NCBI GenBank assembly: GCA_017554145.1
Contig: JAFZIZ010000015.1
Span: forward strand, 186,001 to 250,000
Direction: 5' to 3'
DNA length: 64,000 bases
Source of the DNA: Prevotella sp.
GTDB taxonomy: Bacteria > Bacteroidota > Bacteroidia > Bacteroidales > Bacteroidaceae
The position numbers and the translations under genes were made by a program. Below are positions 29,450-49,615 of this stretch, piece after piece. The notes beneath the pieces are model-generated. The model was given only the letters and a program-made list of their open reading frames with translations. It did no database searches and was not told where the DNA came from. How positions within the stretch are numbered: the stretch's first letter is position 1; every line of letters starts with the position of its first letter.

Positions 29450-31183
29450 TTATTTCTTTAGAATCTTCTTGCCTTGATAGATGTAGATTCCCTTTTTCGT
29501 GGGCTCTCCTGAGAGACGACGACCGCTAATGTCGTACCAAACATCCTTGCCTTTGGTGAGGGTCGGGGTGATGTTTTCGATTCCTGTTACGACACCTTGC
29601 AAGGCACCAGACTGATTATAGTAACCACCATTCTCGAAATCGAGGTCGGCTGTCTGTTCACCATTATTATTGTTATTAAAGATAATCTGCGTTGGTTTTG
29701 AGGTCAGTGTTCCATTATATGACCATTTCCAAACCGTTTTACCATTATTGGTTCCTACCTTTGTACATGCTGCACCAGGCCATGAGCCGCCAGTGTAGTT
29801 GTTGTTGGCATCCCAAGCCCAGCACTTGACAGTGGTCCATGAAGTGGGAGCCTCGAAGAAAGCACATACCTCACCCTCGTTTACCTGACAGAAATCGGGA
29901 GCTGTGAAGGTATCTTCCTTGATATTGTCCAAAGCGGAGATATCCACGCCATTGCTCACGTACATCTTATAATTTGTGCCTTCCATAGCAAGCATAAAAC
30001 CATCCGTAGAAGCTGTAGCAGTTCCTAACAGCAACAGTACATCACCCTTCGTACCCTTTACTTTCAGCACATATCCGTCATTGGATGCCGTCTTGGTATC
30101 AATACTACTCTGGTTATGAATACCAGCAGCCTTGCGTACCAAAATCATTTTCTTGATAGGAACCTTGTAGGTCTGCCAATGTTTTAGCCAGACGCAAGGA
30201 GTTCCAGGCATAGTGAGGATAAAGGCATTGGCTGCCTCTACGTTGGCATAGAGAGGGCACTCGCCTTGGCGACCAGTATCGTGGTTGTCGACGAAGGTCA
30301 CGGCATAACGGGCATAATCCTCATCGTTCGACAGCGTTGCCTTGTTGAGGTCAGCCCAATTGTTACCATTATTACTGAATGCTGAGTTGATATAATACTT
30401 CAGGGGGAAGTCGAAAGCAGCACTCTGGATGACACCGTCAACCTTCGTACCTTTGATCCAGTTGGTCACCACTGTCTTGTTGCCATCCCAGCATTCTCCG
30501 ACAGAGAATTTTGGCTGGGCAGTCGTATTATATAGTCCCACATATTTGGCAGCAAAGCCTTTCACAAAGTCATAGCGGAAACCTATATACCCTAAATCGT
30601 TAAGCAGGAAGTTCTCATACGCCATTACATTTTTTTGTACGTTCTCACTAGTATGGTCAAGATCGCGGGCACCGCCCCATCCTTCACCAGTATCATTAGC
30701 ACCAGTGGGTTTATATCCCTTATCCTTTGATTCATCGTTCTTACAGATATCCGCTGCTGTCAATTGATAGGTCACGCCTTTGTAAGTCTCCGCAGGGAAG
30801 TTCAGCCAGTTACCGTCTACACTAGCACGGTGATTGATGACCACATCCTCTATGATGCCCACACCCTTGTCCTTGAACGTCTTAATCATGCTACGCAGTT
30901 GATTTTCCGTACCAAACGCACTCCTATGGTTGAACCAATAGATGGGATGATAGCCCATGTTGTTGGATGTGGTATTACAATAACCCGAATTCGGCACCCA
31001 GATCAGGTCAAAAAACTGTGACATCTCATCTGCCTGCGACTCCAAGTTTGCCCAATTGGTGTCTGTATACGAGTCCCAGAAGAAACCCTGTAACATCACA
31101 CCACTATATTTCTCTGGCCATCCCTGAGCAGCAACTGTCAGCGTGGCAATAAACAGTAAAAGGGTTGCGTAAATCTTTTTCAT
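29450..31183 (-). CDS. Secreted GH13 alpha-amylase with C-terminal starch-binding-type domain and sorting-type tail
   Basis: A 577-residue protein with a signal peptide (1-19, VAAQ) and a GH13 barrel (about 22-400). Catalytic residues are visible: nucleophile Asp in GFRYDFVKG (about 203), acid/base Glu in VGECWDG (about 229) and the HD pair in FVDNHDTG (about 299). VINHR marks region I. After the barrel comes a CBM26-like module (about 455-545, CWAWDANNNYTGGSWPG) and the tail YDISGRRL, KKGIYIYQGKKILKK. It fits the place of SusG, although SusG is a lipoprotein and this one shows no lipobox. It is a separate unit with an operator upstream. Confidence 0.88.
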   Translation of the reverse strand: MKKIYATLLLFIATLTVAAQGWPEKYSGVMLQGFFWDSYTDTNWANLESQADEMSQFFDLIWVPNSGYCNTTSNNMGYHPIYWFNHRSAFGTENQLRSMIKTFKDKGVGIIEDVVINHRASVDGNWLNFPAETYKGVTYQLTAADICKNDESKDKGYKPTGANDTGEGWGGARDLDHTSENVQKNVMAYENFLLNDLGYIGFRYDFVKGFAAKYVGLYNTTAQPKFSVGECWDGNKTVVTNWIKGTKVDGVIQSAAFDFPLKYYINSAFSNNGNNWADLNKATLSNDEDYARYAVTFVDNHDTGRQGECPLYANVEAANAFILTMPGTPCVWLKHWQTYKVPIKKMILVRKAAGIHNQSSIDTKTASNDGYVLKVKGTKGDVLLLLGTATASTDGFMLAMEGTNYKMYVSNGVDISALDNIKEDTFTAPDFCQVNEGEVCAFFEAPTSWTTVKCWAWDANNNYTGGSWPGAACTKVGTNNGKTVWKWSYNGTLTSKPTQIIFNNNNNGEQTADLDFENGGYYNQSGALQGVVTGIENITPTLTKGKDVWYDISGRRLSGEPTKKGIYIYQGKKILKK

Positions 31184-31209: not shown

Positions 31210-31217
31210 CGAAGTTA
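31210..31217 (-). promoter_or_regulatory. -7 box of the alpha-amylase gene
   Basis: TAACTTCG on the minus strand (31217-31210), one mismatch from TAnnTTTG. It lies 55 bases downstream of the operator at 31273-31286. A TTG with 23-base spacing (31243-31241) is the only -33 candidate, consistent with a promoter that needs help. Confidence 0.55.
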
Positions 31218-31272
31218 CGACTTTTTCGCTAACGTGCTATCAATCAAGCCCTAAATAAAACGTTATATAATG

Positions 31273-31286
31273 TGCAAACGGTTGCA
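31273..31286 (-). promoter_or_regulatory. LacI-type operator upstream of the alpha-amylase
   Basis: TGCAAACGGTTGCA, one base off the palindrome TGCAAACGTTTGCA. It extends to GTGCAAACGGTTGCAC (31272-31287). The gap to the -7 box is 55 bases. Confidence 0.75.
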
Positions 31287-31302
31287 CTATGACATCATTT
31301 TT

Positions 31303-31340
31303 ATGAAAAAAAAGACAGGCACCTTGATGGGGTGCCCGTC
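31303..31340 (-). terminator. Terminator of the starch-binding-type protein gene
   Basis: On the minus strand: GACGGGCACC (31340-31331), a 7-base loop, GGTGCCTGTC (31323-31314), then eight T residues. Confidence 0.9.
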
Positions 31341-31364
31341 TATTGAATCTATGAAGTTGAGATA

Positions 31365-32612
31365 TTATTTCATCACAACCTTGCGACCGTTCATGATAAC
31401 TACACCACGGAAGCCTTCCTGTACGCGCTGACCCTGCAGGTTGTACATAGCAGAGCTCTTAGTATTGTTCTTCACGTTCTTGATGCCAGTAGAAACCACT
31501 GCTTCAACGCTTAACTCCTTGGTTTCAGCATTGAAAGTGAAGGTAACGTCATAGGTACCTGCTGCCTCGATAGTAAGAATCTTATTACCAGAACCTTCAC
31601 CATATGACTCTGACCAATCGTGGTCGGCAACAACCTTGAACTCATAGTTACCTGCTGCCAGCTCAACGCCAGTGAGAGTTAACTTATAGAGACCATCATC
31701 ACCTTTTACCATATCGTTAGCCACGTTTGTGGGATCCCACTCTGCACCACAAAGGTCTGGTACACCTGCAATAGTCCAAGTTTTATCAACAGGTTCAGGA
31801 TCGAGCTCTTCAAGATTTGTAGCCTCGCACTTGATAGTCCAGTTCTCAGTAGCACTCTTACCACCATTCCAAGTCAATGTAAAGGTAAAGGCACTTGCCG
31901 TGTACTTGGTAAGGTCAACCTTAAAGTTACCATCACCGGTAGCCTCTAACCATTTGGGAGCCTCGCTGTTAGGAGTCTTGCCTGCTACAGGCTCTTCTTC
32001 TGCATTATAGTAAACATCCCAGTAGCCCATCCATGAAGTACCATTGGGGCGGAACTTGAATGCTACGTTCTTGGTTCCTGCAGGAAAAGTTGAGGGGTCA
32101 AAAGAGAACTTGAAGGTCTTGCCAGCCTCGATGACCTCTGCAAAGACGGTGGGATCATCCCATCCCCATGCTTCAATACTGCCGGAAATACCAAGAGTCT
32201 TGACTTCAGCATCAGGAATCTCTGTATAGTCCTCGGTGACATCCTGTAAACTTACATTGCCTTCACCGTCATCCCAAGAGAGAATGAAATAGCGATCTGA
32301 AACAACGTCTTTGACGTCGCCAGTCTGCTTAGTACCTTCGGATTCACCATTATTAAGTAGAAAGCTCACGATGGTCACCTCGTCGGGGAAGGTATACATC
32401 CAGAATTCATCACCTGTGTCTGGATGGGTATACTTCTCGGTGAACTGAATTGTGCCGGGCCAACTATAAAGTTTGTCAGAGTTCTGTAGACCTCCGTCGG
32501 CGCCCCACCACCAAATGAACGGAGCAGTTTCACACTGAACGTAAATGTTGATAGCAGCATGAGCAGCCACTGTCATAACGCTCATAAGAATTAGAGTAAA
32601 AATTTTCTTCAT
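31365..32612 (-). CDS. Secreted starch-binding-type protein with sorting-type tail
   Basis: A 415-residue exported protein (signal peptide 1-19, AAHA). It contains beta-sandwich modules with aromatic patches: an N-terminal CBM26-like part (about 20-110, FIWWWGADGG, KLYSWPG), a middle module (about 130-270, FRPNGTSWMGYWDVYY) and a third (about 275-375, TWTIAGVPDLCGAEWDP, NYEFKVVADHDWSESYG) that resembles the X25/SusE-SusF type starch-binding domain. The tail MYNLQGQRV, GVVIMNGRKVVMK closes it. No catalytic residues are seen. It has its own operator, promoter and terminator, and probably helps hold starch outside the cell. Confidence 0.75.
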   Translation of the reverse strand: MKKIFTLILMSVMTVAAHAAINIYVQCETAPFIWWWGADGGLQNSDKLYSWPGTIQFTEKYTHPDTGDEFWMYTFPDEVTIVSFLLNNGESEGTKQTGDVKDVVSDRYFILSWDDGEGNVSLQDVTEDYTEIPDAEVKTLGISGSIEAWGWDDPTVFAEVIEAGKTFKFSFDPSTFPAGTKNVAFKFRPNGTSWMGYWDVYYNAEEEPVAGKTPNSEAPKWLEATGDGNFKVDLTKYTASAFTFTLTWNGGKSATENWTIKCEATNLEELDPEPVDKTWTIAGVPDLCGAEWDPTNVANDMVKGDDGLYKLTLTGVELAAGNYEFKVVADHDWSESYGEGSGNKILTIEAAGTYDVTFTFNAETKELSVEAVVSTGIKNVKNNTKSSAMYNLQGQRVQEGFRGVVIMNGRKVVMK

Positions 32613-32695
32613 AATCGTTTTGTTTTAAAAGTTATGTAATAATGTTAGAAATATATTGTTTTGAATAATCCTTCGTTACCTCTGGATTTCGAGAG

Positions 32696-32703
32696 CAAAA
32701 TTA
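32696..32703 (-). promoter_or_regulatory. -7 box of the starch-binding-type protein gene
   Basis: TAATTTTG on the minus strand (32703-32696), 54 bases downstream of the operator at 32758-32771. A TTTG at 32730-32727 is 23 bases away, longer than the usual 20. Confidence 0.6.
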
Positions 32704-32730
32704 AATAAAATAACGTTACGTTGTTTCAAA

Positions 32731-32778
32731 TGAAAGAAGAAAAATGAAAAGGTGGCGTGCAAACGTTTACACACCACC
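32731..32778 (-). terminator. Terminator of the susC-susF-like operon, with an operator in its stem
   Basis: The 28-base near-palindrome 32751-32778 (minus strand GGTGGTGTG...CACGCCACC) folds into a stem of about 13 bp with two G-U pairs and is followed on the minus strand by TTTTCATTTTTCTTC. It starts 12 bases after the SusF-like stop. The 14-base operator 32758-32771 is the centre of this stem. Confidence 0.7.
32758..32771 (-). promoter_or_regulatory. LacI-type operator upstream of the starch-binding-type protein
   Basis: TGCAAACGTTTACA, one base off TGCAAACGTTTGCA. The gap to the -7 box is 54 bases. It is nested in the terminator of the preceding gene. Confidence 0.7.
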
Positions 32779-32789
32779 CTTATCATGCT

Positions 32790-34364
32790 TTATTTCCTCA
32801 GAATCGACCAATCACCTGTAATATCGTTCAGGTAGAAGTCGTAGGTTCCTGCAGGAACAGTGATATCACTGCTGCCTGTAGGCAAAGTATATACTGTGGG
32901 ACTGAGAGGTTGTGAACCATCGCCACCCCAGTCTTTGGTATCCCAATTGTGGTTGGCGCGGAACTTCAACTGCGTATCAGCTGTCAGTTCGAAGTCCAGC
33001 AGGCACCAGTTGTGAGGAGCCTTAGCGCACTGGACGAGGTCGAAGTCCTTGTCCCAGTTAGAACCATTGATGGTACCGATGAGACTGATGTTAGTGTAGT
33101 TCACTGTAGGTTTAGCAACGGCTGTCCACTCATAAGTGCGGATATTCTTCTCCTCGTCCATCTCAATGGTCAGCGTGTACCAACCTTCTTCGAGTGGGCC
33201 GAGCCACTGACCTGGCTGCGCGAATTTACCACTCTCCTCACGGGGAGCTGTAGCCTTGCCATCGAAGCCCCACGTCTTGGTTGTAGCACCTGCCAGCATG
33301 GCCTCGCGCTCCCAAACCTTCACATTATAGACTGACTTACCACCGGCATTGTTGGGCCAGAAGGTAGTATATGTGAATGTCGTGGGATCCGTCTTGTAGA
33401 ACATGTAGTTACGGCTGGTTTCAGGATCCTCAACCTTCATGTTGCCACCAGCATTGGTATACAAGTAGTAGCAGTAGAACTGGATGACAGCCTCAGAGAC
33501 TATCGACAGTTTCTCCATGTTCATGAGGAGATCGTATTTGACAGCACCGTCGTTAGCAGGACCTACAAAAGCAGGACCACCTTTCAGCATACCTTCTCCT
33601 TCTCCCTTTCCAAAGGCTACGCTCTTGTCACCTGCCTGAAACTTGGCAAGGTCTTCTTCAGCCACAATCATATACTCGGTATTCAAACGGACGTCAGCAT
33701 CATTTTTGAGGGCATCGATAGTAACAGAGAATTCAGGGTCATCATAGACATCTGCATCGCTATGGTTGAATTTGGTCTCTGTCCACTTACCATCAAGGCC
33801 TTTTACAACTGCATAATAACCTTTGGAGATATAGATGCCTCGCTCATTGACTGGAGTGAAAGCGACATTATAGTTACCATAATAGTTACTTCCCGGCGTT
33901 CCAATGATAGCCTCGCTGGTGTCGTCAGTAACGGTAAAGAGGTTAATACGTAGATAGAGAGTAGTCTGATTGGGATTATGAGTAAAATGATTGTAGTAGG
34001 CAGCCTGCAGGTTGCTGGGCAGCACACTAACCTCATTGGAATTAGCCATACTCTCGCAATCAAGAGTGTATGCATCACTGAAATCGGCAGCCTTGGCAAT
34101 GTCGATTCGTGCCTTCATCACTGTATTGGCAGGCATGGCACCCTCAGCCACCGACACATTACCCAGCACAATGGGAGCATCACTTTCTATGAGATTTTGT
34201 AGATTGATACTTCCTACTTCAACGCCGTTAAAGGTGATGTCACTCGACTGGAGTATACTCTCCTGCGGATTCGACTGCGGAGGAGTCGAAACCGAGTAGT
34301 CGTCGTTGCAGGCGGCAAAGACGGCGGTCAGAAGAGCCATTATATAGAAACTGATTCTTTTCAT
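32790..34364 (-). CDS. SusF-like outer-membrane starch-binding lipoprotein
   Basis: A 524-residue lipoprotein (MALLTAVFAACNDD, Cys at about 19). After an N-terminal SusE/F-type domain come two beta-rich segments and a C-terminal starch-binding-type module (about 425-520, NYTNISLIGTINGSNWDKDF, LKFRANHNWDTKDWGGDG, VPAGTYDFYLNDITGDWSI). SusE and SusF of Bacteroides hold starch at the cell surface without catalysis. It is the last gene of the susC-D-E-F-like operon, 34 bases after the SusE-like gene, and is followed by a terminator that includes an operator. Confidence 0.8.
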   Translation of the reverse strand: MKRISFYIMALLTAVFAACNDDYSVSTPPQSNPQESILQSSDITFNGVEVGSINLQNLIESDAPIVLGNVSVAEGAMPANTVMKARIDIAKAADFSDAYTLDCESMANSNEVSVLPSNLQAAYYNHFTHNPNQTTLYLRINLFTVTDDTSEAIIGTPGSNYYGNYNVAFTPVNERGIYISKGYYAVVKGLDGKWTETKFNHSDADVYDDPEFSVTIDALKNDADVRLNTEYMIVAEEDLAKFQAGDKSVAFGKGEGEGMLKGGPAFVGPANDGAVKYDLLMNMEKLSIVSEAVIQFYCYYLYTNAGGNMKVEDPETSRNYMFYKTDPTTFTYTTFWPNNAGGKSVYNVKVWEREAMLAGATTKTWGFDGKATAPREESGKFAQPGQWLGPLEEGWYTLTIEMDEEKNIRTYEWTAVAKPTVNYTNISLIGTINGSNWDKDFDLVQCAKAPHNWCLLDFELTADTQLKFRANHNWDTKDWGGDGSQPLSPTVYTLPTGSSDITVPAGTYDFYLNDITGDWSILRK

Positions 34365-34398
34365 ATCTTATCCTTTTTTGAGTTAATACACATTGTAT

Positions 34399-35352
34399 TT
34401 AATTGACTGCAAATTTCACCTTATTGGTGTTCATATCAACCGTGAAGGTGACAGAACCACCAGCAAAGCCAGCAAACTTCCATGTACCCTTACCAGGTTG
34501 CAACAAGTCGTCCGAATAGGTGTTATTGTCATCCCATTCGCAACCATCAATAGGCGCATCGGCCTTTTGAGGACCTATAGATCCTAGTGGGTCGTCGTCG
34601 CTGCCCCAATCGTCCAGATAGGTGTAGAAGCGGAATTGGAGGTCGCCGGCAGGAATGTCGAAGGTTGCCTCAAATACCTTGCTGCCAATCTCTGTCTCCA
34701 TCAGTTTCCATTCTTCGAGGGCTTCAGCATTACCTGTAGAAGGGGTCGTCCACCCATTAGGACTACCAATGAGATAGATGTAGGCAGGAGCCTTGATGGC
34801 TTCGTAAGCAGCCATATGATTAAAGAATACGGCGTTGGAGACGATTTCCGAACCTGGCACAAGGTCGGTCAAAGCCTCGAATAGGGCGGCACGGACACGG
34901 AAGGCAATCTGTCGGAACCCTTTATCGACATAGTCTTCAGGTTTTGTAATTCCATCAGCCTGATTAATGCCCTGTGCAATTTCCTCACCACTGATATCTG
35001 AACTGCAGGTATAGAGGTTCGTACTCAGGTAGTCATCCTCTTGGCCAATGACATTACCGTCATCATCTTTGACGTCCTTCTGACACCATTTTACGCTACC
35101 GTCATCCTGTACCACACCAACCTGGATGCTATAGGTTGCATAGGCATTATAGCCATAGTCAGGCTGCGACCATGTCAAATGGACAGTATTGGTGGCTGAC
35201 AGCTGAATATACTGATCTGCCATCGCTGGTGTATTGAGCGTGAAGGCGGTTGGCGTCTTGAACGTCGGATTGTCATCACGGTCATCCTTGCAAGATGTGA
35301 ATATGCTGGCGATGCATATCAGCAGGGCGCCAAGCAATAATTTGTTCTTCAT
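34399..35352 (-). CDS. SusE-like outer-membrane starch-binding lipoprotein
   Basis: A 317-residue lipoprotein (CIASIFTSCKDD, Cys at about 21). The N-terminal SusE domain (about 30-140, TAFTLNTPAMADQYIQLS, VHLTWSQPDYGYNAYATY) is clear. The C-terminal module (about 195-317, YIYLIGSPNGWTTPS, LQFRFYTYLDDWGSDD, VTFTVDMNTNKVKF) looks like a single starch-binding domain. It is shorter than the two-module SusE of Bacteroides. It lies 37 bases after the SusD gene in the same operon. Confidence 0.82.
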   Translation of the reverse strand: MKNKLLLGALLICIASIFTSCKDDRDDNPTFKTPTAFTLNTPAMADQYIQLSATNTVHLTWSQPDYGYNAYATYSIQVGVVQDDGSVKWCQKDVKDDDGNVIGQEDDYLSTNLYTCSSDISGEEIAQGINQADGITKPEDYVDKGFRQIAFRVRAALFEALTDLVPGSEIVSNAVFFNHMAAYEAIKAPAYIYLIGSPNGWTTPSTGNAEALEEWKLMETEIGSKVFEATFDIPAGDLQFRFYTYLDDWGSDDDPLGSIGPQKADAPIDGCEWDDNNTYSDDLLQPGKGTWKFAGFAGGSVTFTVDMNTNKVKFAVN

Positions 35353-35389
35353 ATTGCGTTTTAATTTGTTTCTATTTTAATGACTCCAT

Positions 35390-37129
35390 TTATTCAATCT
35401 CAGAGTAACCGTCAATCTGAATAAGATTGCTGTTGGCCATGATCTCAGAAGAAGGCAGAGGAAATAGATTACGGCTCTTGTCGAACTTAATCTTGCTAGA
35501 ACCATCCTTAATACCGTTCTTGTAAGACCAGTTGTAAGCATCCTGACCTCCAAACTTATTGAAGCGGATAAGGTCTACACGACGATAGCCCTCGAAGTAG
35601 AACTCACGAGCACGTTCATCCAGCACGTCATTCAGCGAGTAAGTGCTCTTGGCAGCAGCATGAGCACGGTTGCGAACGGCATCCATATACTGCTTAGCCT
35701 TAGAAGAAGTAGAACCGTTGAGGTGTATCTCAGCCTCAGCAGCATTCAGATAGGCTTCTGCTGTACGGAAAAGGAAGAAGTCGATGTCGACATCGGTGGG
35801 ATCGTGAGGAGTAGCACCTGTGGAATAGTTATTGTTCCATTTGGGAGTCACAATACCCTCTACGAACTCTGTGTTATTACCCAGTTCTAAGGTACGGTCT
35901 TTCTTGTCCGTTCCCTTGCCCCAGAAGATGGCACGGTCATCGTTGCTGGCAGCACGAATCTCAACAGCAGTCTTGCCGACATACGTTGAAGGAGAAGAGG
36001 TAAATACCTCCAGGAATTCAGGACGACAGCGCATGCCGCTCCAAGCACCATCGGTAGTTGCACTGCTCAGATCTATAACATTCTTCATAAAACTGTCCCA
36101 CATCGCTGCAATAAAGAAACGAGAGCCGCCCCAGCCACGCGTGGTGACACCATCTTGCTTAAGAGGAAGAATGGCTTCGCAACTTGCACCATTGGAACCA
36201 TTATCGCCCATAAACAGCAGGTCATAAGGCTTGTAGCCTTTAGCTGTGGCAACAGGAGATATCTTACTGTCATCGAACAGAGAATAGTCAGAGTTGATGA
36301 CTTTCTCGGCATATGAGAGAGCCTCTGCCCAGTATGGGTTGTTTTGACCGTCATTGTTCAGGTAGACACCTGCATTCAAGTATAGACGGCTTAGTAGCAG
36401 CCACGCAGCAGCCTTGTCGACACGTCCGTAGTTTGCATCACTATCTGTCTTAGGCTGAGCATCCAATAGGTTGGGCTCTGCAGCCTCGATTTCACTCTTT
36501 ACCCATTCGAACAGATATTCACGTCCCATCGCTAACAGTTCTGCTCGCGTATAGGACTGACCCTCGACAAATTTGGAATTATAGGCATGTGCCTGCATGG
36601 GAGGATCTGCCGAAATAGATGTTGTAAACGATGGATCTCCAAAGAAATCAAGCATCAAGTAGTTGTTATATGCACGCAGCAAGCGGACTTCTGCCTGCAT
36701 GGTGGCATCAGCGCCATTTTCTTCGGCAATTGCCAGGAAATGGTTGCAGAAACCGATGTTCGACACTAGACGATAGTAGAGGAACTTCAGTGTGGGCGTG
36801 CTTGGCATACACTGGTTATAACAGATATCCACAATACCACCGTCACTCCACCAACAGATGGCCTCGTCGGTAGGCAGCACATTGAAATTGAAGATGTTAC
36901 GTAAAAGAGTGGAGCGTCCAGCATCTTGGATGGTGAAATCGGCGGCACCGTCGTTACCCTCCATTATCAGACCAGCATAGCACTTAGAGTATAGTGCTGC
37001 AATATCCACTTCTGGGGTGACATTTGGATCAAGGTTACCCTTGTTAAGGTCATCCATGCAAGAAGTGATGCTGGTAGCAAACAGCAGTGCTGCTGCCGGA
37101 ATCATTGCTTTGATTTTATTGAGTTTCAT
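35390..37129 (-). CDS. susD: SusD-family outer-membrane glycan-binding lipoprotein
   Basis: A 579-residue lipoprotein (LLFATSITSCMDD, Cys at about 24). It has the RagB/SusD layout: TPR-like helices and the conserved VDKAAAWLLLSRLYLNAGVY (about 240-260), then YLNAAEAEIHL and ERAREFYFEGYRRVDLIRF (about 520-540, the DERAREF form is seen here). SusD forms a lid on the SusC pore and helps capture malto-oligosaccharides. It starts 25 bases after the SusC stop. The gene symbol reflects its place in a starch locus. Confidence 0.92.
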   Translation of the reverse strand: MKLNKIKAMIPAAALLFATSITSCMDDLNKGNLDPNVTPEVDIAALYSKCYAGLIMEGNDGAADFTIQDAGRSTLLRNIFNFNVLPTDEAICWWSDGGIVDICYNQCMPSTPTLKFLYYRLVSNIGFCNHFLAIAEENGADATMQAEVRLLRAYNNYLMLDFFGDPSFTTSISADPPMQAHAYNSKFVEGQSYTRAELLAMGREYLFEWVKSEIEAAEPNLLDAQPKTDSDANYGRVDKAAAWLLLSRLYLNAGVYLNNDGQNNPYWAEALSYAEKVINSDYSLFDDSKISPVATAKGYKPYDLLFMGDNGSNGASCEAILPLKQDGVTTRGWGGSRFFIAAMWDSFMKNVIDLSSATTDGAWSGMRCRPEFLEVFTSSPSTYVGKTAVEIRAASNDDRAIFWGKGTDKKDRTLELGNNTEFVEGIVTPKWNNNYSTGATPHDPTDVDIDFFLFRTAEAYLNAAEAEIHLNGSTSSKAKQYMDAVRNRAHAAAKSTYSLNDVLDERAREFYFEGYRRVDLIRFNKFGGQDAYNWSYKNGIKDGSSKIKFDKSRNLFPLPSSEIMANSNLIQIDGYSEIE

Positions 37130-37154
37130 AATAATGTACTTTATTGATTGTTGA

Positions 37155-40100
37155 TTAGAAATTCAAGTTTACACCAAGCAGGAAGGTACGACAGCGAGGA
37201 TAAACGCTACTTTCCTTACCAGAGGTCTGCTCAGGATCTAGACCCTCGTATTTTGTGAAGGTAAACACATTAGTGCAAGAAGCATATACGCGTCCTGAAA
37301 TACCATGATATTTGCCTGCCTTGAACAAATTCTCGAAATTGTAACCCAATGTAATATTGTCACATTTCAAGAAAGAAGCATTCTGTACAAAATAATCACT
37401 CAGTGGATAGTTGTAGGAACTCCATTTCAGTGCCGTAATGCTTGGAGTACTATTCTCATAGTAACCAGCGGTGTTCGCTAGCACAGAAGAGTTCATCTTA
37501 CCCTGCACGATGTCGTTATAGACATAGTTGCCAATACTGAAGCGGAAGTTAGTACCCAAATCCCAGTTTTTATAGGCAACCTTGAAGAAGAAACCACCAG
37601 TCCAGGGGGCAGTAATACTTTTATAGAAATAACGGTCGTTTTCGTCGATGACACCATCGGCATTGCGGTCAACATAGACACCCTGAATAGGACGTCCACT
37701 GGCATCATACACCTGCTGGTACACCCAGAAGGAGTTGGCGGGCTGTCCTACCTTGTGATAAGTCACTGTTTGGTCCGTACCTGCCGTCATACCTGCCTCA
37801 ATCATGTCACGACCGCCATAGAGTTCACTAATCTTGTTCTTGTTGTAGGCCATGTTGGCACCTAACTCCATGAACCAGTCCTTGGTCTGGACGGGTTTGC
37901 CACTGATAGCCAGTTCTATACCCGTATTTTTCAGAGAACCAGCATTAAGCATCATGGCATTGTCGAAGTTCATACCACCAGGAATAGTAGGAGTACAGAG
38001 CAGGTCGGTAGTTTTACGATAGTAAGCATCAAAAGCCACCGTCAAGCGCTGATTGTACATACCGAAGTCAATTCCGAAGTTCCACGTAGTAGTAGTTTCC
38101 CATGTCAGGTCATTGTTATATACCAAAGGCTGATAGAGGATACCACTTGGGTTGGCACTCATGGGGTATAGGTAGTGGCTGTTGGCAGCATCTCTGGTAA
38201 CCTTATAGATAGGAGTATAGTATTCTCTACCCGTATCCTGCTGACCAGTCTTACCCCAGCCGATACGAATCTTAGCATCGCTGATAGCATCTACATTCTT
38301 CAAGAACTTTTCATCTTTCAGACGCCAAGCAAAGGCTGCAGAGGGGAAGAAACCCCAGCGGTGACCATCAGCAAAGCGACTAGAACCGTCGTAACGAGCC
38401 GTGAAGGTGAAGAGGTAGCGATCCATCAGTGTGTAGTTCATACGTCCATACCAACTGACGAGGACAGTCTGACCTTTCCATTTATCCTCCACCTTATTAT
38501 TAATGGTATTGGCTTTAGGATTACCTTCGTCATCAAGTCCTTCATAAGTAGAGGGGAAGTAGGACGTGTAGTTGTTGGTACCCCAGTAGCGCATACGGCT
38601 GTATTCGTAACCAGCCATAATGTCTAAGTGATGATTCTCGTTGAAATCCTTGAAATACTGGGCATAAGCGGTGTAGATCAGGTTGTATTTCTTCTCTTGA
38701 TTTTCACCCGTTCCACCATAATAGAATCCATAGGTAGAATAGCGATTGTTGTTTGTATATTCGCCGCCATCGGCATACTCACCAGCAAAATTCATGTGGA
38801 GACGAATGTCCTCAAGACCATGAATCTTGTAGTCAATCTCGAAATTACCCAACAATACATTGGCTTTTTTATACCAAGTATAGTGGTCAATCTTCTCCAT
38901 GGGGTTGGCAGGAGAATTATCCAAAAGCGTATAGGGGAACGTAGGATCGAAGACGTCTGTTTCCTTGGTCCACTGCCAGTAGCCGCCCCAGTTGGCAAAC
39001 TTCTGATCACTGCTCGTTACAGGACGTGTAGGATCCATTCTTGTGGCAAGACCAATGGCTTCGGTGCCACCAGGACGTGTTTTGGAATAGGCATACTTAC
39101 CATTAATATTAAGGTTCAGATGGTCATCCAGCAATGAGGGATTCAGCGTAAAGCCTGCAGTGAAACGACTGTAGTCAGAACCCTTTAGGACACCCTGCTG
39201 ATTAGTATAGCCTACACTGGCACGATAAGGCATAGCCCACTTTGTGTTACCCACACCACCAGTAACGGTAATGTTCTGATCGTGGCTGAATGAATTGCGG
39301 TATATCTCATCCTGCCAATCTGTATCGTATGTTCCTGCTGCATAGTTAGGTGTGTTTTCATCTATGAACTCCTTCCAACCAAGTCCATTATACTGGATAG
39401 AGCCTTCACCATATTTTTCCTTCATGAAGTTGACATACTCGCTGGCATTCATGACATCGAGTTTCTTAGCAACACTACTTATAGAGAAAGTGCCGTTGTA
39501 TGAAACTTTGGGAGCCTGATTACGACGACCTTTCTTGGTAGTGATAATGATAACGCCATTAGAACCACGGCTTCCAAAGATCGCAGTAGCAGAAGCATCC
39601 TTCAGTACGGTAAATGACTCGATATCGTTAGGGTTAACCAACGACAGGGGATTGCTCATTCCCTTGGTAGCGTTATTGTCCATAGGCATTCCGTCAATAA
39701 CGATCAACGGGTCGTTACTTGCATTCAAAGAAGCACCACCACGGATACGAATCTGGGCACCGTCACCAGGAGCACCTGAGGCAGAGTTTACGTTGACACC
39801 AGCGATCTTACCCTGAATCATGTCCTGAGCACTTACCTGCAGACCATGGTTCTTTTCATCTGGTTTAATGGCAGTGACAGAACCTGTCAAATCGGTCTTC
39901 CTAGCACGACCATAACCAATGACAACGACATTTTCAAGGACTGCAGCATCCTCCTGAAGAGTAATCTCAATATTAGCGGCAGCCTTCACCGTCTGGGTTT
40001 GGTATCCCACGTATGAAACGCTAATATCAGCACCTTGGTTTGCTTGCAAGGCGAAATTACCGTCAAAATCTGATACGGTAGCAGTTTGAGTACCAACCAC

Positions 40101-40247
40101 ACGTACCGTCGCACCGATAATCGGTTCGCCCTGAGCATCCTTAACATGACCTTTGACATCAATTTGAGCAAAGGCACCCACCGAAAGAAAGAGTCCTAAC
40201 ATCAGGACCAACATCCTTAACGGAGTTTTAATGTTTACCCGCTTCAT
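37155..40247 (-). CDS. susC: SusC-family TonB-dependent outer-membrane transporter
   Basis: A 1030-residue protein: signal peptide (to about 27, GAFAQ), an N-terminal carboxypeptidase-D-like domain (about 29-105, VKGHVKDAQGEPIIGATVRV), TonB box and plug (VVIGYGRARKTDLTGSVTAI, IRIRGGASLNASNDPLIVID, about 107-230), and a long beta barrel ending FLLGVNLNF. Plug and barrel length are normal. It imports starch fragments with SusD. It is the first gene of the operon; the promoter (minus 40326-40319) lies 55 bases from the palindrome at 40382-40395, divergent from the LacI-family gene. Confidence 0.93.
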   Translation of the reverse strand: MKRVNIKTPLRMLVLMLGLFLSVGAFAQIDVKGHVKDAQGEPIIGATVRVVGTQTATVSDFDGNFALQANQGADISVSYVGYQTQTVKAAANIEITLQEDAAVLENVVVIGYGRARKTDLTGSVTAIKPDEKNHGLQVSAQDMIQGKIAGVNVNSASGAPGDGAQIRIRGGASLNASNDPLIVIDGMPMDNNATKGMSNPLSLVNPNDIESFTVLKDASATAIFGSRGSNGVIIITTKKGRRNQAPKVSYNGTFSISSVAKKLDVMNASEYVNFMKEKYGEGSIQYNGLGWKEFIDENTPNYAAGTYDTDWQDEIYRNSFSHDQNITVTGGVGNTKWAMPYRASVGYTNQQGVLKGSDYSRFTAGFTLNPSLLDDHLNLNINGKYAYSKTRPGGTEAIGLATRMDPTRPVTSSDQKFANWGGYWQWTKETDVFDPTFPYTLLDNSPANPMEKIDHYTWYKKANVLLGNFEIDYKIHGLEDIRLHMNFAGEYADGGEYTNNNRYSTYGFYYGGTGENQEKKYNLIYTAYAQYFKDFNENHHLDIMAGYEYSRMRYWGTNNYTSYFPSTYEGLDDEGNPKANTINNKVEDKWKGQTVLVSWYGRMNYTLMDRYLFTFTARYDGSSRFADGHRWGFFPSAAFAWRLKDEKFLKNVDAISDAKIRIGWGKTGQQDTGREYYTPIYKVTRDAANSHYLYPMSANPSGILYQPLVYNNDLTWETTTTWNFGIDFGMYNQRLTVAFDAYYRKTTDLLCTPTIPGGMNFDNAMMLNAGSLKNTGIELAISGKPVQTKDWFMELGANMAYNKNKISELYGGRDMIEAGMTAGTDQTVTYHKVGQPANSFWVYQQVYDASGRPIQGVYVDRNADGVIDENDRYFYKSITAPWTGGFFFKVAYKNWDLGTNFRFSIGNYVYNDIVQGKMNSSVLANTAGYYENSTPSITALKWSSYNYPLSDYFVQNASFLKCDNITLGYNFENLFKAGKYHGISGRVYASCTNVFTFTKYEGLDPEQTSGKESSVYPRCRTFLLGVNLNF

Positions 40248-40318
40248 TCATTTAATTTTTATAGTTAGTAATATGATTTAGTTCTCTATTATCAATTGCT
40301 AGTGGAGTATATCCGTTG

Positions 40319-40326
40319 CAAAGATA
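40319..40326 (-). promoter_or_regulatory. -7 box of the susC operon
   Basis: TATCTTTG on the minus strand (40326-40319). No TTTG or TTG is found at the usual 19-21 bases upstream. The operator at 40382-40395 is 55 bases away. Confidence 0.65.
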
Positions 40327-40379
40327 TGATTTGTTTTTATTCGTTATTCTTTTTTAAGAGTTAAATTCTTTATTATACC

Positions 40380-40397
40380 AATGCAAACGTTTGCATT
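40380..40397. promoter_or_regulatory. LacI-type operator between the divergent susC and regulator promoters
   Basis: AATGCAAACGTTTGCATT, a perfect 18-base palindrome with core TGCAAACGTTTGCA (40382-40395). From the core it is 55 bases to the susC -7 box and 56 bases to the regulator's -7 box, so it sits midway between the two promoters. Confidence 0.85.
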
Positions 40398-40451
40398 AAC
40401 TACACCTTATAAATAAATAGAAGAAGAGATGGTGGTTTCAAAAGATTATAC

Positions 40452-40459
40452 TACCTTTG
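40452..40459 (+). promoter_or_regulatory. -7 box of the LacI-family regulator gene
   Basis: TACCTTTG lies 24 bases before the ATG at 40484 and 56 bases after the operator core. No -33 is seen at normal spacing. Confidence 0.55.
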
Positions 40460-40483
40460 CTGAGTAAAACTAAAGGCCGACAA

Positions 40484-41509
40484 ATGAAAGAGAAGGTTTC
40501 TTTGACGATGAAAGATATTGCCCGTGAATTTGGTATCAGCGTGGCAACGGTATCCAGGGCGTTGAAAGACTCGCCCCGCATCTCGGCTGAACGACGTGCG
40601 GTTATCCAGCAATATGCCCGAGAACATAACTTCATCCCCAATGTTATTGCAGAGTCATTACGCCACTCAAGGGTGCAACCTATTAAGGTGATTGGTGTTA
40701 TTATTCCTGAATTTGCACATTATTACTTCTCTTCCATCTTGGCGGGTATAGAGGAAGAAGCCTCTGCACATGGCTATCGTATCATGGTGGCACAGAGTAA
40801 CGAACGATACGAACGGGAGGTGAAAATCTGTCAGTCTTTCTATGAGAACAAGGTTTGTGGCATCATTGTCTCACAGGCGAAGGATACCCAAAAATATGAG
40901 CATTTCCAACGACTGATTGACGCAGGTGTGCCATTAGTGTTCTATGATCGTATCTGTACTGGGGTGAATGCCAGTCGTGTAGTGGTGGACGATTATATGG
41001 GTGCTTACAATGCCGTGACACATCTGATAGAGACAGGTTGTAACCGCATTGCCTTCTATGGTTCTTCCATGACATTGGAAATTTCCAAGAACCGATATAA
41101 TGGATATAAGGATGCTTTGCTCAAGCATGGTATTCAGCCCGATCCGGAGCTGATGCGATTCTGCGATAACCGTACGGATGCGGAAACGATTACACCAGAA
41201 TTACTTTCTATGCCTATTCCTCCTAACGGCTTCTTTGCTGTGAACGACGATACTGCCATCGGAATCCTTTATACGGCAAAACGTATGGGATTCAAGGTGC
41301 CAGACGATATCTCTATTTGCGGCTTTACAAATGGACAGCGTGCTGTCGCTTGTGATCCCATGCTGACTACAGTGGAACAACGAGGCGTCAAGGTGGGTGA
41401 AGAGGCTGCCGATATTTTGATTGGGCATGTGGAAGGTACCATCCCTTTGGAAAAGGCAGAGCGTCGAGTTGTTCGTACAAGATTGATAATAAGAGGTACT
41501 ACTAGATAG
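40484..41509 (+). CDS. LacI-family transcriptional regulator of the starch locus
   Basis: The start at 40484 (MKEKVSLTMKDIAREFG) is chosen over an in-frame TTG at 40457 that overlaps the -7 box. The 341-residue protein has the LacI helix-turn-helix and hinge (MKDIAREFGISVATVSRALK, ..FIPNVIAESLRHSR, about 9-65) and a periplasmic-binding-protein-like effector domain (about 68-335; GVIIPEFAHYYFSSILAGIE, GFFAVNDDTAIGIL). It probably binds the TGCAAACGTTTGCA palindromes and senses a malto-oligosaccharide. Its own promoter carries the same site, so it is likely self-regulated. It takes the place of SusR, which is unrelated in structure. Confidence 0.88.
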   Translation: MKEKVSLTMKDIAREFGISVATVSRALKDSPRISAERRAVIQQYAREHNFIPNVIAESLRHSRVQPIKVIGVIIPEFAHYYFSSILAGIEEEASAHGYRIMVAQSNERYEREVKICQSFYENKVCGIIVSQAKDTQKYEHFQRLIDAGVPLVFYDRICTGVNASRVVVDDYMGAYNAVTHLIETGCNRIAFYGSSMTLEISKNRYNGYKDALLKHGIQPDPELMRFCDNRTDAETITPELLSMPIPPNGFFAVNDDTAIGILYTAKRMGFKVPDDISICGFTNGQRAVACDPMLTTVEQRGVKVGEEAADILIGHVEGTIPLEKAERRVVRTRLIIRGTTR

Positions 41510-41532
41510 TTGATAGTTAAGAGATATAAGAT

Positions 41533-42840
41533 ATGAAACAGAAACCGAATCTTTCTTTCTGGAAACTATGGAACCTTAGTTTCGGATTTTTCGGAGTGCA
41601 GATAGCGTATGCACTCCAGAGTGCTAACATCTCACGTATCTTCGCCACTTTGGGCGCTGATCCTCATAACTTGAGTTACTTCTGGATTCTCCCTCCGTTG
41701 ATGGGTATCCTGGTGCAACCGATTGTTGGAACGTTGAGCGACAAGACATGGACACGTTTCGGTCGACGTATACCTTATTTATTTATAGGAGCGACTGCAG
41801 CGGTTTTGGTGATGTGTCTCTTACCCAATGCAGGTTCCTTGGGGTTGACTATCAGTGCTGCCATGATGTTCGGACTCATCGCATTAATGTTCTTGGACAC
41901 CAGCATCAATATGGCGATGCAACCCTTTAAGATGTTAGTGGGCGACATGGTGAATGAAGAGCAGAAGGCGAAGGCATACAGCATCCAGTCGTTTCTCTGT
42001 AATGCAGGTAGTGTGGCAGGCTATCTGTTCCCCTTTATCTTCACTTTCATTGGTATCAGTAATGTCGCCGAGAAGGGAGTGGTGCCCGATAGTGTCATCT
42101 GGTCGTTCTATATTGGTGCTGCCATCCTGATTCTCTGTGTCATCTATACCACTTCGAAGGTCAAGGAGTGGAATCCCAAAGAGTATGCAGAGTATAATGA
42201 GAAATCTGAGGATTCAGAGGACTCAAAGGGCTCCGGCAACTGGCTTACCCTCTTGCGTAAGGCTCCCTCTACTTTCTGGAAAGTAGGACTGGTGCAGTTC
42301 TTCTGTTGGGCTGCCTTCCTCTATATGTGGAACTATTCAACAGGAGCAATTGCTGAGACGGTATGGAACACTACCGATCCCGCCAGCGAGGATTTCCAGG
42401 AAGCAGGCAACTGGGTGGGCGTACTCTTTGCCGTACAGGCTATCGGCTCTGTCATTTGGGCTGCGCTATTACCTCAGTTCAAGAACACGAAAGTGGCTTA
42501 TGCCGTCAGCCTCATCATTGGTGGTATCGGTTTTGCCCTTGTTCCCTTCATCCACGATGCATATATGCAATTCATTCCCTTCCTGTTGATAGGTTGTGCA
42601 TGGGCAGCCATGCTTGCTATGCCTTTCACCTTTGTTACCAATGCCTTACAGGGTTATGGCCATATGGGAGCCTATCTCGGATTGTTCAACGGCACCATCT
42701 GTATTCCTCAGATTGTAGCAGCCCTTTGCGGAGGTATTGTACTTTCGCTGATAGGCAGTCATCAGTCATCCATGATGATTGTTGCAGGGGTCCTTCTGAC
42801 AATTGGTGCTGTCTGCGTGGCATTTATACAGAAAAAATAA
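41533..42840 (+). CDS. MFS sugar transporter, probable maltose/malto-oligosaccharide importer
   Basis: A 435-residue inner-membrane protein with about 12 hydrophobic segments. The glycoside-pentoside-hexuronide/SLC45-like signatures are visible: PIVGTLSDKTWTRFGRRIPY (about 58-77) and YSIQSFLCNAGSVAGYLFPF (about 150-170). A charged central loop (about 215-245, YNEKSEDSEDSKGSGN) separates the halves. It starts 23 bases after the regulator and so shares its promoter. It would bring periplasmic malto-oligosaccharides to the cytoplasmic 4-alpha-glucanotransferase. Confidence 0.85.
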   Translation: MKQKPNLSFWKLWNLSFGFFGVQIAYALQSANISRIFATLGADPHNLSYFWILPPLMGILVQPIVGTLSDKTWTRFGRRIPYLFIGATAAVLVMCLLPNAGSLGLTISAAMMFGLIALMFLDTSINMAMQPFKMLVGDMVNEEQKAKAYSIQSFLCNAGSVAGYLFPFIFTFIGISNVAEKGVVPDSVIWSFYIGAAILILCVIYTTSKVKEWNPKEYAEYNEKSEDSEDSKGSGNWLTLLRKAPSTFWKVGLVQFFCWAAFLYMWNYSTGAIAETVWNTTDPASEDFQEAGNWVGVLFAVQAIGSVIWAALLPQFKNTKVAYAVSLIIGGIGFALVPFIHDAYMQFIPFLLIGCAWAAMLAMPFTFVTNALQGYGHMGAYLGLFNGTICIPQIVAALCGGIVLSLIGSHQSSMMIVAGVLLTIGAVCVAFIQKK

Positions 42841-42847
42841 CTCTGGG

Positions 42848-42861
42848 TGCAAACGTTTGCA
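42848..42861 (+). promoter_or_regulatory. LacI-type operator upstream of malQ
   Basis: TGCAAACGTTTGCA, a perfect palindrome, 7 bases after the MFS stop and 55 bases before the -7 box at 42917. Confidence 0.85.
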
Positions 42862-42882
42862 TCCTCTAACTTGAAAAACATT

Positions 42883-42915
42883 CCCCATTTGGTTCCAACC
42901 GAATGGGGATTTTTT
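42883..42915 (+). terminator. Terminator of the regulator-MFS operon
   Basis: CCCCATTTGGTT (42883-42894) pairs with AACCGAATGGGG (42897-42908), one G-U pair, followed by ATTTTTT. It lies between the operator and the -7 box of malQ. Confidence 0.85.
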
Positions 42916-42916
42916 G

Positions 42917-42924
42917 TACTTTTG
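42917..42924 (+). promoter_or_regulatory. -7 box of the malQ-GH97-pullulanase-neopullulanase operon
   Basis: TACTTTTG, 21 bases before the ATG at 42946. The nearest TTTG (42888-42891) is 25 bases away, inside the terminator stem. Confidence 0.6.
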
Positions 42925-42945: not shown

Positions 42946-47674
<4,729 letters not shown>

Positions 47675-47675
<1 letters not shown>

Positions 47676-49615
47676 TGAAGAAACTAATATTTATAGGCAT
47701 GGTGGCTCTGACGATGGCATGTCAACCAAACAAAGAGGCGTTTCATTTCGATGAGATGACCTATTCGCCCAGCGAGACGGTCTTCAGGTTGTTTGCACCT
47801 GCTGATGCCGAGTGCTATGTCGTGACAGACAAGGACAGCGTCCGTATGACGCTGGATGCTGACAGTATATGGACAGCAACCATCAAAGGCGACCATCAGG
47901 GCGAGACTTATCAGTTTGTGGTCAACGGACAGGCTTCACCTGGCGTCTTCGCCAAGGCGGTGACGGTCAACGGTGAGAAAGGTGTCATCATCGATATGAA
48001 GAAGACGGATCCTGACGGATGGGCAGCCGACAAACATATTGTCCGTCCTTTTCAGGACAATATCATCTACGAGATGCACCATCGCGACTTCTCCATTGCC
48101 CGAGAGGACGCCAAGAATCCTGGTAAGTTCCTAGCTCTCACAGAGCCTTGGGCTATCGACCATCTGAAAGCGCTCGGCGTGAATGCCATCCATATCCTGC
48201 CGTCGTACGACTATGGCTCGGTAGACGAGACGCGTCTTGCTGACAACAAATACAACTGGGGCTATGACCCTGTGAACTATAACGTCCCAGAGGGTGGCTA
48301 TTCCACAGACCCCTATGACCCTACCTGTCGCATCCGTGAGTTCAAACAGATGGTTCAAGCACTCCACAAGGCTGGCATCTCCATCATCCTCGATGTGGTA
48401 TATAACCATACCTACGATATCGAGCACAGCAATTTCCAGAAGACCTATCCAGACTATTATTATAGAAAAACGATTAGCCCCCAACACCCATCACCCATCA
48501 CCCAACAGCAAGAGTACTCCAACGGCTCTGGCTGTGGCAATGAGACTGCTTCCGAGAAGCCGATGATGCGGGAGTTCATGCTGGAGAGCGTGAAGTACTG
48601 GATTGACGAATACCATATCGACGGTTTCCGTTTCGACCTGATGGGCTGCCATGATATCGAGACGATGAATGCTATCCGTCAGATGGTGGATGAGATCAAC
48701 CCCGACATCTTCATCTATGGTGAGGGATGGAGCGCAGGAGCATGTGCCTTGCCTAACGAACAACTCGGCATAAAGGCGAACATTCCACAGATGCCTCGTA
48801 TCGCTGCTTTCTCGGATGATATCCGTGATGCCCTGCGTGGTCCTTTCTCCGACGATACCAAAGGGGCTTTCTTGGCTGGCATCCCTGGCGAAGAAGAGAG
48901 TCTGAAGGCTGGCATAGCAGGTATGATACAACACCCACAGGTTGACTATACGAAAGTCAACTACTCCAAAGAACCTTACGCCGTAGAGCCTACCCAGATG
49001 ATCAGTTACGTCAGTTGCCACGATGATATGTGTCTCGTGGATCGCCTGAAATCCTCCGTTCCCGGCTTAGATAAATCATTCCACACTCCACATTCCACAC
49101 TCCTCACTCAGTTGATTCGTCTCGACCTCCTGGCACAGACGGCTGTCTTCACCTCACAAGGTGTGCCCTTCATGCTCAGTGGCGAGGAACTGCTACGTGA
49201 CAAGAAGGGTGTCCATAACTCTTTCGAGTCGCCTGACTCTATCAATCGTCTCGACTGGTCGAACAAGACGAAGTATCCGCAGGTATTCGACTATTACAGA
49301 AACCTGATCACCTTACGTAAGAACCATCCTGCTTTCCGTCTCGGAAAGTCAGAACTGGTCAGGAAACATCTGGAGTTCCTTCCTGTAGAAGACTGTCTGG
49401 TGGCTTTCCGCCTGAAAGACCATGCCGGCAATGACCTTTGGAAGGATATCATCGTTATCCTCAATGCCAACCCCACCCCGAAGACCGTCAAGATACCCAA
49501 CGGGAAATATACGGTGGTTTGTCGTGATGGTGTCATCAACGAGGCTGGGTTAGGCGAGATCAACGACAAAGAAGTAAAGGTAAATCCACAATCCGCATTA
49601 ATTATCCATAACTAA
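47675..49615 (+). CDS. Type I pullulanase (GH13), lipoprotein
   Basis: A 646-residue lipoprotein (VALTMACQPN, Cys at about 16) with a CBM48-like N-terminal domain (about 25-105) and a GH13 barrel. The type I pullulanase motif YNWGYDPVNYNVPEG (about 193-207) is present. Catalytic residues: Asp in GFRFDLMGC (about 320), Glu in YGEGWS (about 350) and the HD pair in SCHDDMC (about 449). It opens alpha-1,6 branches. Two degenerate repeats lie in frame (48475-48508 and 49076-49110), at loop positions. It overlaps the GH97 stop by one base. Confidence 0.9.
48475..48508 (+). repeat. Degenerate CACCCATC repeat inside the pullulanase gene
   Basis: CCCAACACCCATCACCCATC then ACCCAACAGC, four near-units, encode SPQHPSPITQQQ, just after YPDYYYRKT and before NGSGCGNE. 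Confidence 0.5.
49076..49110 (+). repeat. CTCCACATTCCACA repeat inside the pullulanase gene
   Basis: It encodes SFHTPHSTLLTQ after the CHDD motif region. It shares the exact 16-mer CACTCCACATTCCACA and the 10-mer ACACTCCTCA with the intergenic repeat at 17971-18005, in the other order. Confidence 0.6.

Follow-up and report, generated by a model that had tools for sequence, protein, structure and literature searches.

The starch locus considered here lies in a window of 64,000 nucleotides of a Prevotella sp. genome (GenBank assembly GCA_017554145.1, contig JAFZIZ010000015.1, positions 186,001 to 250,000 of the forward strand), the whole stretch in which all coordinates below are counted, and it contains a gene encoding a LacI-family regulator of 341 amino acids (aa) (40484..41509, + strand). 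In Pfam, this protein combines the LacI helix-turn-helix domain (PF00356 at residues 8-53, 5.5e-14) with a periplasmic-binding-protein-like sugar-binding domain (PF13377 at residues 178-340, 1.8e-30), the composition expected of the family, and its predicted operator, the conserved palindrome TGCAAACGTTTGCA, has the central CG that is likewise expected. Judging from the sequence comparisons described below, it is highly probable that the regulator activates a starch and malto-oligosaccharide regulon, an arrangement that would extend to gut and rumen Prevotella and related bacteria.

Downstream of the regulator, on the + strand, are genes encoding an MFS sugar transporter (41533..42840), the 4-alpha-glucanotransferase MalQ, a GH77 enzyme with a CBM20 module (42946..45393), an enzyme that we take to belong to GH97 and whose best NCBIfam match, a retaining alpha-galactosidase, was below cut-off (45396..47675), a type I pullulanase (47675..49615), and an alpha-amylase-like enzyme labelled GH13 from its translation read by eye, without a family-library scan (49618..51513). 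The divergent genes on the - strand encode a SusC-type TonB-linked receptor (37155..40247), a SusD-type starch-binding lipoprotein (35390..37129), a SusE-type protein (34399..35352), another operon protein without a Pfam match (32790..34364), a pullulanase X25 domain protein read as starch-binding (31365..32612), and an alpha-amylase with a CBM26 module (29450..31183). In the public collection, related loci came almost exclusively from Prevotella or Prevotellaceae, apart from one of Hoylesella oralis.

The four palindromes reported in a preliminary description of this DNA were found at the positions it gave, and the recomputed distances between palindrome edge and -7 box agreed with its values. 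The operator TGCAAACGTTTGCA at 40382..40395 is common to the divergent susC and lacI promoters, whose -7 boxes are TATCTTTG (40319..40326, - strand, gap 55) and TACCTTTG (40452..40459, + strand, gap 56), respectively. The same sequence, TGCAAACGTTTGCA, recurs at 42848..42861 as the operator of malQ, followed by the box TACTTTTG (42917..42924, + strand, gap 55). The starch-binding protein gene has the operator TGCAAACGTTTACA (32758..32771) and the box TAATTTTG (32696..32703, - strand, gap 54), and the amylase gene has the operator TGCAAACGGTTGCA (31273..31286) and a -7-like box, TAACTTCG (31210..31217, - strand, gap 55). The last of these carries one mismatch, and of the five TAnnTTTG boxes originally claimed, four are therefore exact. 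The palindrome centre, first placed near -76, had to be moved to near -72, the -7 box being centred at -7 in Bacteroides thetaiotaomicron (PMC7366714). A terminator-like hairpin followed by a T-run is situated at 42883-42915, between the malQ operator and the malQ -7 box, so that read-through from the transporter gene could stop within the malQ promoter; comparable inverted repeats with T-runs were seen by eye in some relatives.

Taken alone, the window is unremarkable, with six palindrome matches at up to three mismatches, a number reached by 8 of 100 shuffles. Chance as the origin of the sites, with which this count is compatible, was set aside solely on the strength of counts across the genome and across relatives. 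Over the assembly (2,797,331 bases, 84% complete) the pattern TGYAANCGNTTRCA occurred without mismatch only at these four sites; at up to one mismatch it occurred 22 times, which is background level (21 for the reversed-pattern control).

For the comparative analysis, 150 genomes of the genus were sampled, among which 120, our own genome included, contained an ortholog of the LacI gene. Regions were prepared for 103 of these and fetched for 100, giving 101 genus loci with the window; left out were 16 genomes in which the match was cut or lay (by eye) near a contig end, together with G071, G111, and G058. A palindrome with up to two mismatches was located within 300 bases upstream of lacI in 95 of the 101 loci. 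Variable spacing in close relatives had been named beforehand as an outcome that would count against the idea of a fixed activating position; instead, TAnnTTTG was found at the fixed gap in 93 of the 101 loci toward lacI and in 87 toward susC. Counted by site, a box at gap 53-57 accompanied 93 of 98 palindromes on the lacI side (30 at 54, 47 at 55, 15 at 56); toward susC the figure was 87 of 98 (40 at 54, 47 at 55). Other sites were one-sided: those located downstream had a box at the fixed gap toward the gene in 29/52 cases and in 0/52 on the opposite side, and those far upstream in 40/60 and 3/60, respectively. With at most one mismatch allowed in palindrome and box, the genus ratios were 70/74, 67/74, 34/36, and 40/43, as compared with 46/1480 in control intervals. 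Among the named loci, of which 79 of 80 were used (one starts too near lacI) and 15 of the 79 come from genomes already sampled, the both-sided layout was present in 72/79 and the palindrome was absent in five.

The layout was retained beyond the genus, down to a LacI identity of about 50%. Loci from other genera numbered 31, with LacI identities of 50-73%; a box at gap 52-58 was found on the lacI side in 28 and on the other side in 23, rising to 30/31 and 25/31 when three palindrome mismatches were allowed; two of these loci have a separate palindrome for each side. The distance is conserved while the spacer sequence has mostly diverged, with spacer identities of 33-34% for lacI and other promoters and 42-47% for susC promoters, compared with 27-32% in shuffled sequences. 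Additionally, the susC promoters of the genus contain extra conserved blocks (TAACG, TTTAA, an A-tract, and GTACAA; window 40326-40381) that are absent from the lacI and other promoters. Upstream of the operator, no second conserved site was detected in the 90 bases preceding 93 single-sided sites, where only the adjoining base was conserved and the SusR motif (direct repeats with centres 67 or 77 bp apart) was not itself scanned for; a C or T comes directly after the operator in 323 of the 336 composite promoters.

The composite pattern of palindrome and box also tracks the regulator gene. Within the genus, a match at gap 40-70 was present in 111 of the 120 genomes with the LacI ortholog and in 4 of the 30 without it (Fisher p 1.5e-17), and among 251 genomes of the family a match at gap 50-60 was present in 34/45 and 2/206, respectively (Fisher p 5e-30), both tests treating as independent genomes that are not. 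The reversed control pattern gave zero matches in any genome of the genus, family, and phylum scans. Of the four genus genomes that match without an ortholog, three (G057, G089, and G139) are 65-77% complete and the fourth (G085) matches at gap 44. Those three, like G167 and G213 of the family, have one composite site each without a detected ortholog; the five assemblies are 65-81% complete, and the LacI gene may simply be missing from them. A phylum-wide spread was considered and rejected: five of 296 genomes had a composite match, two of them within the family, and the three outside it, one per genome at gaps 63, 49, and 57, were read as chance.

Promoter statistics were based on palindromes mismatched at no more than two positions whose gap to an exact TAnnTTTG is 53-58, which gave 339 rows (336 distinct) out of 361 found at up to three mismatches. 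In the fetched loci, 304 of the 309 open reading frames (ORFs) called downstream of composite sites match genes of the window locus, namely those for LacI, SusC, MalQ, the amylase, the starch-binding protein, the pullulanase, or the GH13 enzyme; 30 of the 339 composite rows had no called downstream ORF. Remote sites were represented by 20 loci chosen by hand from at least about 40, two of them within 20 kb of lacI. Of their 21 composite promoters, 13 precede relatives of amylase, MalQ, GH97, or GH13 (the GH13 relative being weak, 27% over 202 aa) and one precedes a SusC-like gene. In one locus (L198, 3500-3700), a palindrome has boxes at gaps 54 and 56, with malQ on one side and no starch gene identified on the other.

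With regard to the core promoter, the target promoters have the TAnnTTTG -7 box of the Bacteroides primary sigma factor and nearly always lack its -33 TTTG, sought here at 19-21 bases before the -7 box. That none of the five starch promoters of the window has TTTG at 19-21 was confirmed, yet malQ has TTTG at 25 and the starch-binding protein gene at 23. Of the other TAnnTTTG boxes that precede ORFs of the window, 15 in number, only 5 have TTTG there, so its lack in the five is by itself weak evidence. What carries the point of the missing -33 box is the larger comparison, in which TTTG at 19-21 was found in 7/336 composite promoters and in 46/252 other boxes of the same loci (Fisher p 6e-12).

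Two further elements were noted in the spacer. Offsets 15-16 from the operator are 92-100% A/T in all three promoter groups, and the corresponding tracts, 15-17 bases from the palindrome edge, are located at 40364..40366 on the susC side (- strand) and 40411..40413 on the lacI side (+ strand). The second element, GnACAACG, lies at -23 to -16 and is anchored to the -7 box and not to the operator, as judged from promoters with gaps 54 and 55. ACAAC was found at -21 in 36/336 composite promoters and only 10 times elsewhere in the spacer; the two control sets had it at -21 in 0/46 and 0/202, and elsewhere 4 and 7 times. At least 5 of 7 matches to GnACAACG were scored by 103/275 promoters in the genus, 1/61 outside the genus, and 3/202 controls, scores that are fitted, the consensus having been derived from the same promoters; the agreement among the three promoter groups is better support for the element. 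It was not visible in the 20 gap-56 promoters (2/20, equal to shifted positions), and its candidacy as a universal element was rejected, since it was enriched neither there nor outside the genus. In the window, 6/7 matches were found for susC (40342..40349, - strand) and the starch-binding protein gene (32719..32726, - strand), 3/7 for malQ, and 0/7 for lacI. GnACAACG could take the place of the -33 element, or another factor could bind there.

A paralogous LacI protein, 35-38% identical to the starch regulator, provided a contrast. In six upstream regions of 20 first selected, the operator of this one examined paralog, ACGTAAACGTTTGCG, differs from TGCAAACGTTTGCA, and the spacing differs too: the palindrome ACGTAANCGNTTGCG is separated from TAnnTTTG by exactly 18 bases in four of the six (L287-L290), whereby the operator's own TTTG falls at spacing 20 and becomes the -33 box. 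In these four regions, the layout appears repressor-like, the operator overlapping the core promoter as in classical LacI repressors, an overlap that the starch regulator does not show.

The proposal of the preliminary description, that the LacI-family protein activates from a fixed upstream position, is thus supported by the spacing, the way the sites co-occur with the LacI gene, the starch genes that they precede, the lack of a -33 box, and the contrast with a repressor-like paralog, all of which fit an activator whose binding, sign, and transcription starts are predicted. A dimer of the regulator would bind TGCAAACGTTTGCA with its centre some 72 bases before the start that we predict and, from that face of the helix, would recruit RNA polymerase carrying the Bacteroidota primary sigma factor to promoters with a normal TAnnTTTG -7 box and no TTTG -33 box. 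A fixed site upstream of the core promoter, as observed, is the arrangement of class I-like activators, and the likeliest contact would be of that type, with the C-terminal domain of the polymerase alpha subunit placed on the A/T tract that lies 15-17 bases away from the operator and 37-39 bases before the -7 box. Since a single operator would serve both susC and lacI, which diverge from it, the regulator would activate its own gene as well, and, its targets being catabolic, a maltodextrin probably promotes activation. More tentatively, and with somewhat less than even confidence, we suggest that these sites represent a new activator-dependent class of Bacteroidota promoters, in which a LacI protein at about -72 replaces -33 recognition and, in Prevotella, GnACAACG is perhaps read by the activator-bound polymerase instead of TTTG.

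Several observations weigh against activation or reduce the force of the evidence for it. LacI proteins are mostly repressors. The A/T tract had to be dropped as a mark of activation, since 46 ordinary promoters, those having TTTG at 19-21, are also A/T-rich at -37 to -39; it resembles an upstream element of general use, which the activator may exploit as well. Exact composite matches are missing from 9/120 genomes with the ortholog and present in 4/30 without it, and no starch gene was identified after 7 of the 21 composite promoters in the 20 hand-chosen loci. The paralog contrast is uneven, with a palindrome at gap 73 in L291 and none found in L286. Furthermore, the 252 control boxes behind the 46/252 figure may include non-promoter sites, and most sampled genomes are related, so that the counts are not independent events. 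In the 46 ordinary promoters, A/T-rich positions were observed at -5 to -8 from the box as well as at -37 to -39; these are perhaps a general upstream element.

Among other explanations, the one that survives best, though we regard it as improbable, is a repressor that, from -72, obstructs the alpha C-terminal domain or an activator, or forms a loop between operators, and is released by sugar. The habit of the LacI family and the several operators per locus would fit such a protein, as would the CRP-like global activator of sugar genes proposed in Bacteroides (PMC3878776). It would have no need of a 54-56 base spacing fixed over hundreds of diverged promoters, the 90 bases upstream hold no second conserved site for an activator, and the -7/-33 region is left free, as opposed to the paralog operator that embeds the -33 box in 4/6 regions. 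Slightly less probable still is a dual regulator that activates when sugar-bound and, when sugar-free, represses a second, overlapping start. Three lacI-side sites of the genus do have an extra TAnnTTTG at 18 bases, where the operator TTTG becomes a -33 box at spacing 20, and a further one has it at 19; L185 is another such case. These arrangements are rare, boxes at gap 17-19 being found at 4/98 starch palindromes on the lacI side and 0/98 on the susC side. Finally, it is very unlikely that a different LacI-family protein mainly binds the palindromes, with the neighbouring gene a bystander or co-regulator, for although many genomes hold other LacI paralogs with similar operators, the composite sites track this ortholog in both genus and family (111/120 vs 4/30; 34/45 vs 2/206), and the one paralog examined uses ACGTAAACGTTTGCG with another spacing.

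Starch use is the founding case of the polysaccharide loci of gut Bacteroidota, with the membrane protein SusR as its textbook regulator. If the LacI-family protein is an activator as we propose, many Prevotella (the gene is present in 120/150 genus genomes) and their relatives would run such genes by a LacI-type activator, in a compact, divergent, self-activating module. More than 300 predicted promoters of one geometry would become available for work on activation with the unusual Bacteroidota sigma factor. It would also suggest that sequence can reveal the sign of a LacI regulator, a gap of 54-56 without a -33 box on one hand and, as in the paralog, mostly a gap of 18 with the operator as -33 box on the other.

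In the literature searched, limited to open-licence sources, no report of this regulon, its spacing, or its sign was found. A regulon study of Bacteroides describes, in the text available, four LacI regulators, all for uronic acids and none for starch (PMC3878776). In Segatella copri DSM18205, which can grow on maltose, the sus system is incomplete, and no LacI protein is named for sus in the accessible part of that report (PMC11784079); LacI is not mentioned in PMC12596196, and a LacI gene is named in a legend on xylan and pectin polysaccharide utilization loci in PMC5306329. LacI-type regulators in sus loci that lack SusR have already been noted, as predictions, in B. fragilis and B. uniformis (PMC11633381). 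Those loci resemble ours in combining a LacI-type regulator with an MFS transporter, and differ in that the regulators are predicted annotations accompanied by maltose phosphorylase genes, with no operator, spacing, or sign given in the portion of the source available. SusR of Bacteroides likewise activates starch operons and responds to maltose, but it is a membrane protein, and the sites predicted for SusR-type regulators consist of direct repeats spaced by 67 or 77 bp (PMC3878776), in contrast to the LacI-type protein and palindrome found here.

Activators within the LacI family are already known or proposed, namely CcpA, AraQ/MalR1, and IpsA. IpsA of Corynebacterium has been described as a LacI-type activator with a palindrome containing a central CG, but inositol releases it from DNA in vitro, and no fixed promoter spacing appears in the available text (PMC3899939). 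CcpA, among the best solved-structure relatives of the regulator at 40484, also activates from upstream, at 14 bp from the -35 box (cited in PMC6882875; the portion of PMC4495994 available gives no CcpA geometry), whereas the Prevotella site lies further upstream and has no -33 box. As to the preliminary remark that no described case of this geometry was known to its author, a partial precedent exists in AraQ/MalR1 of Bifidobacterium breve, the nearest in geometry. These LacI-type carbohydrate regulators have sites upstream of the core promoter, 33-35 bp from the -35 box at three genes (PMC6882875), a distance that would be about 31 bp in Prevotella had a -33 box existed. Two other genes have it at 15-16 bp, no particular distance is stated by the authors in the text available, the -35 box is present, and activation was predicted from position, with no significant change in the mutant there (PMC6882875). 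In the Prevotella promoters, by comparison, a single distance is kept, TTTG is missing at -33, the genes form a starch regulon, and the sigma factor is a different one.

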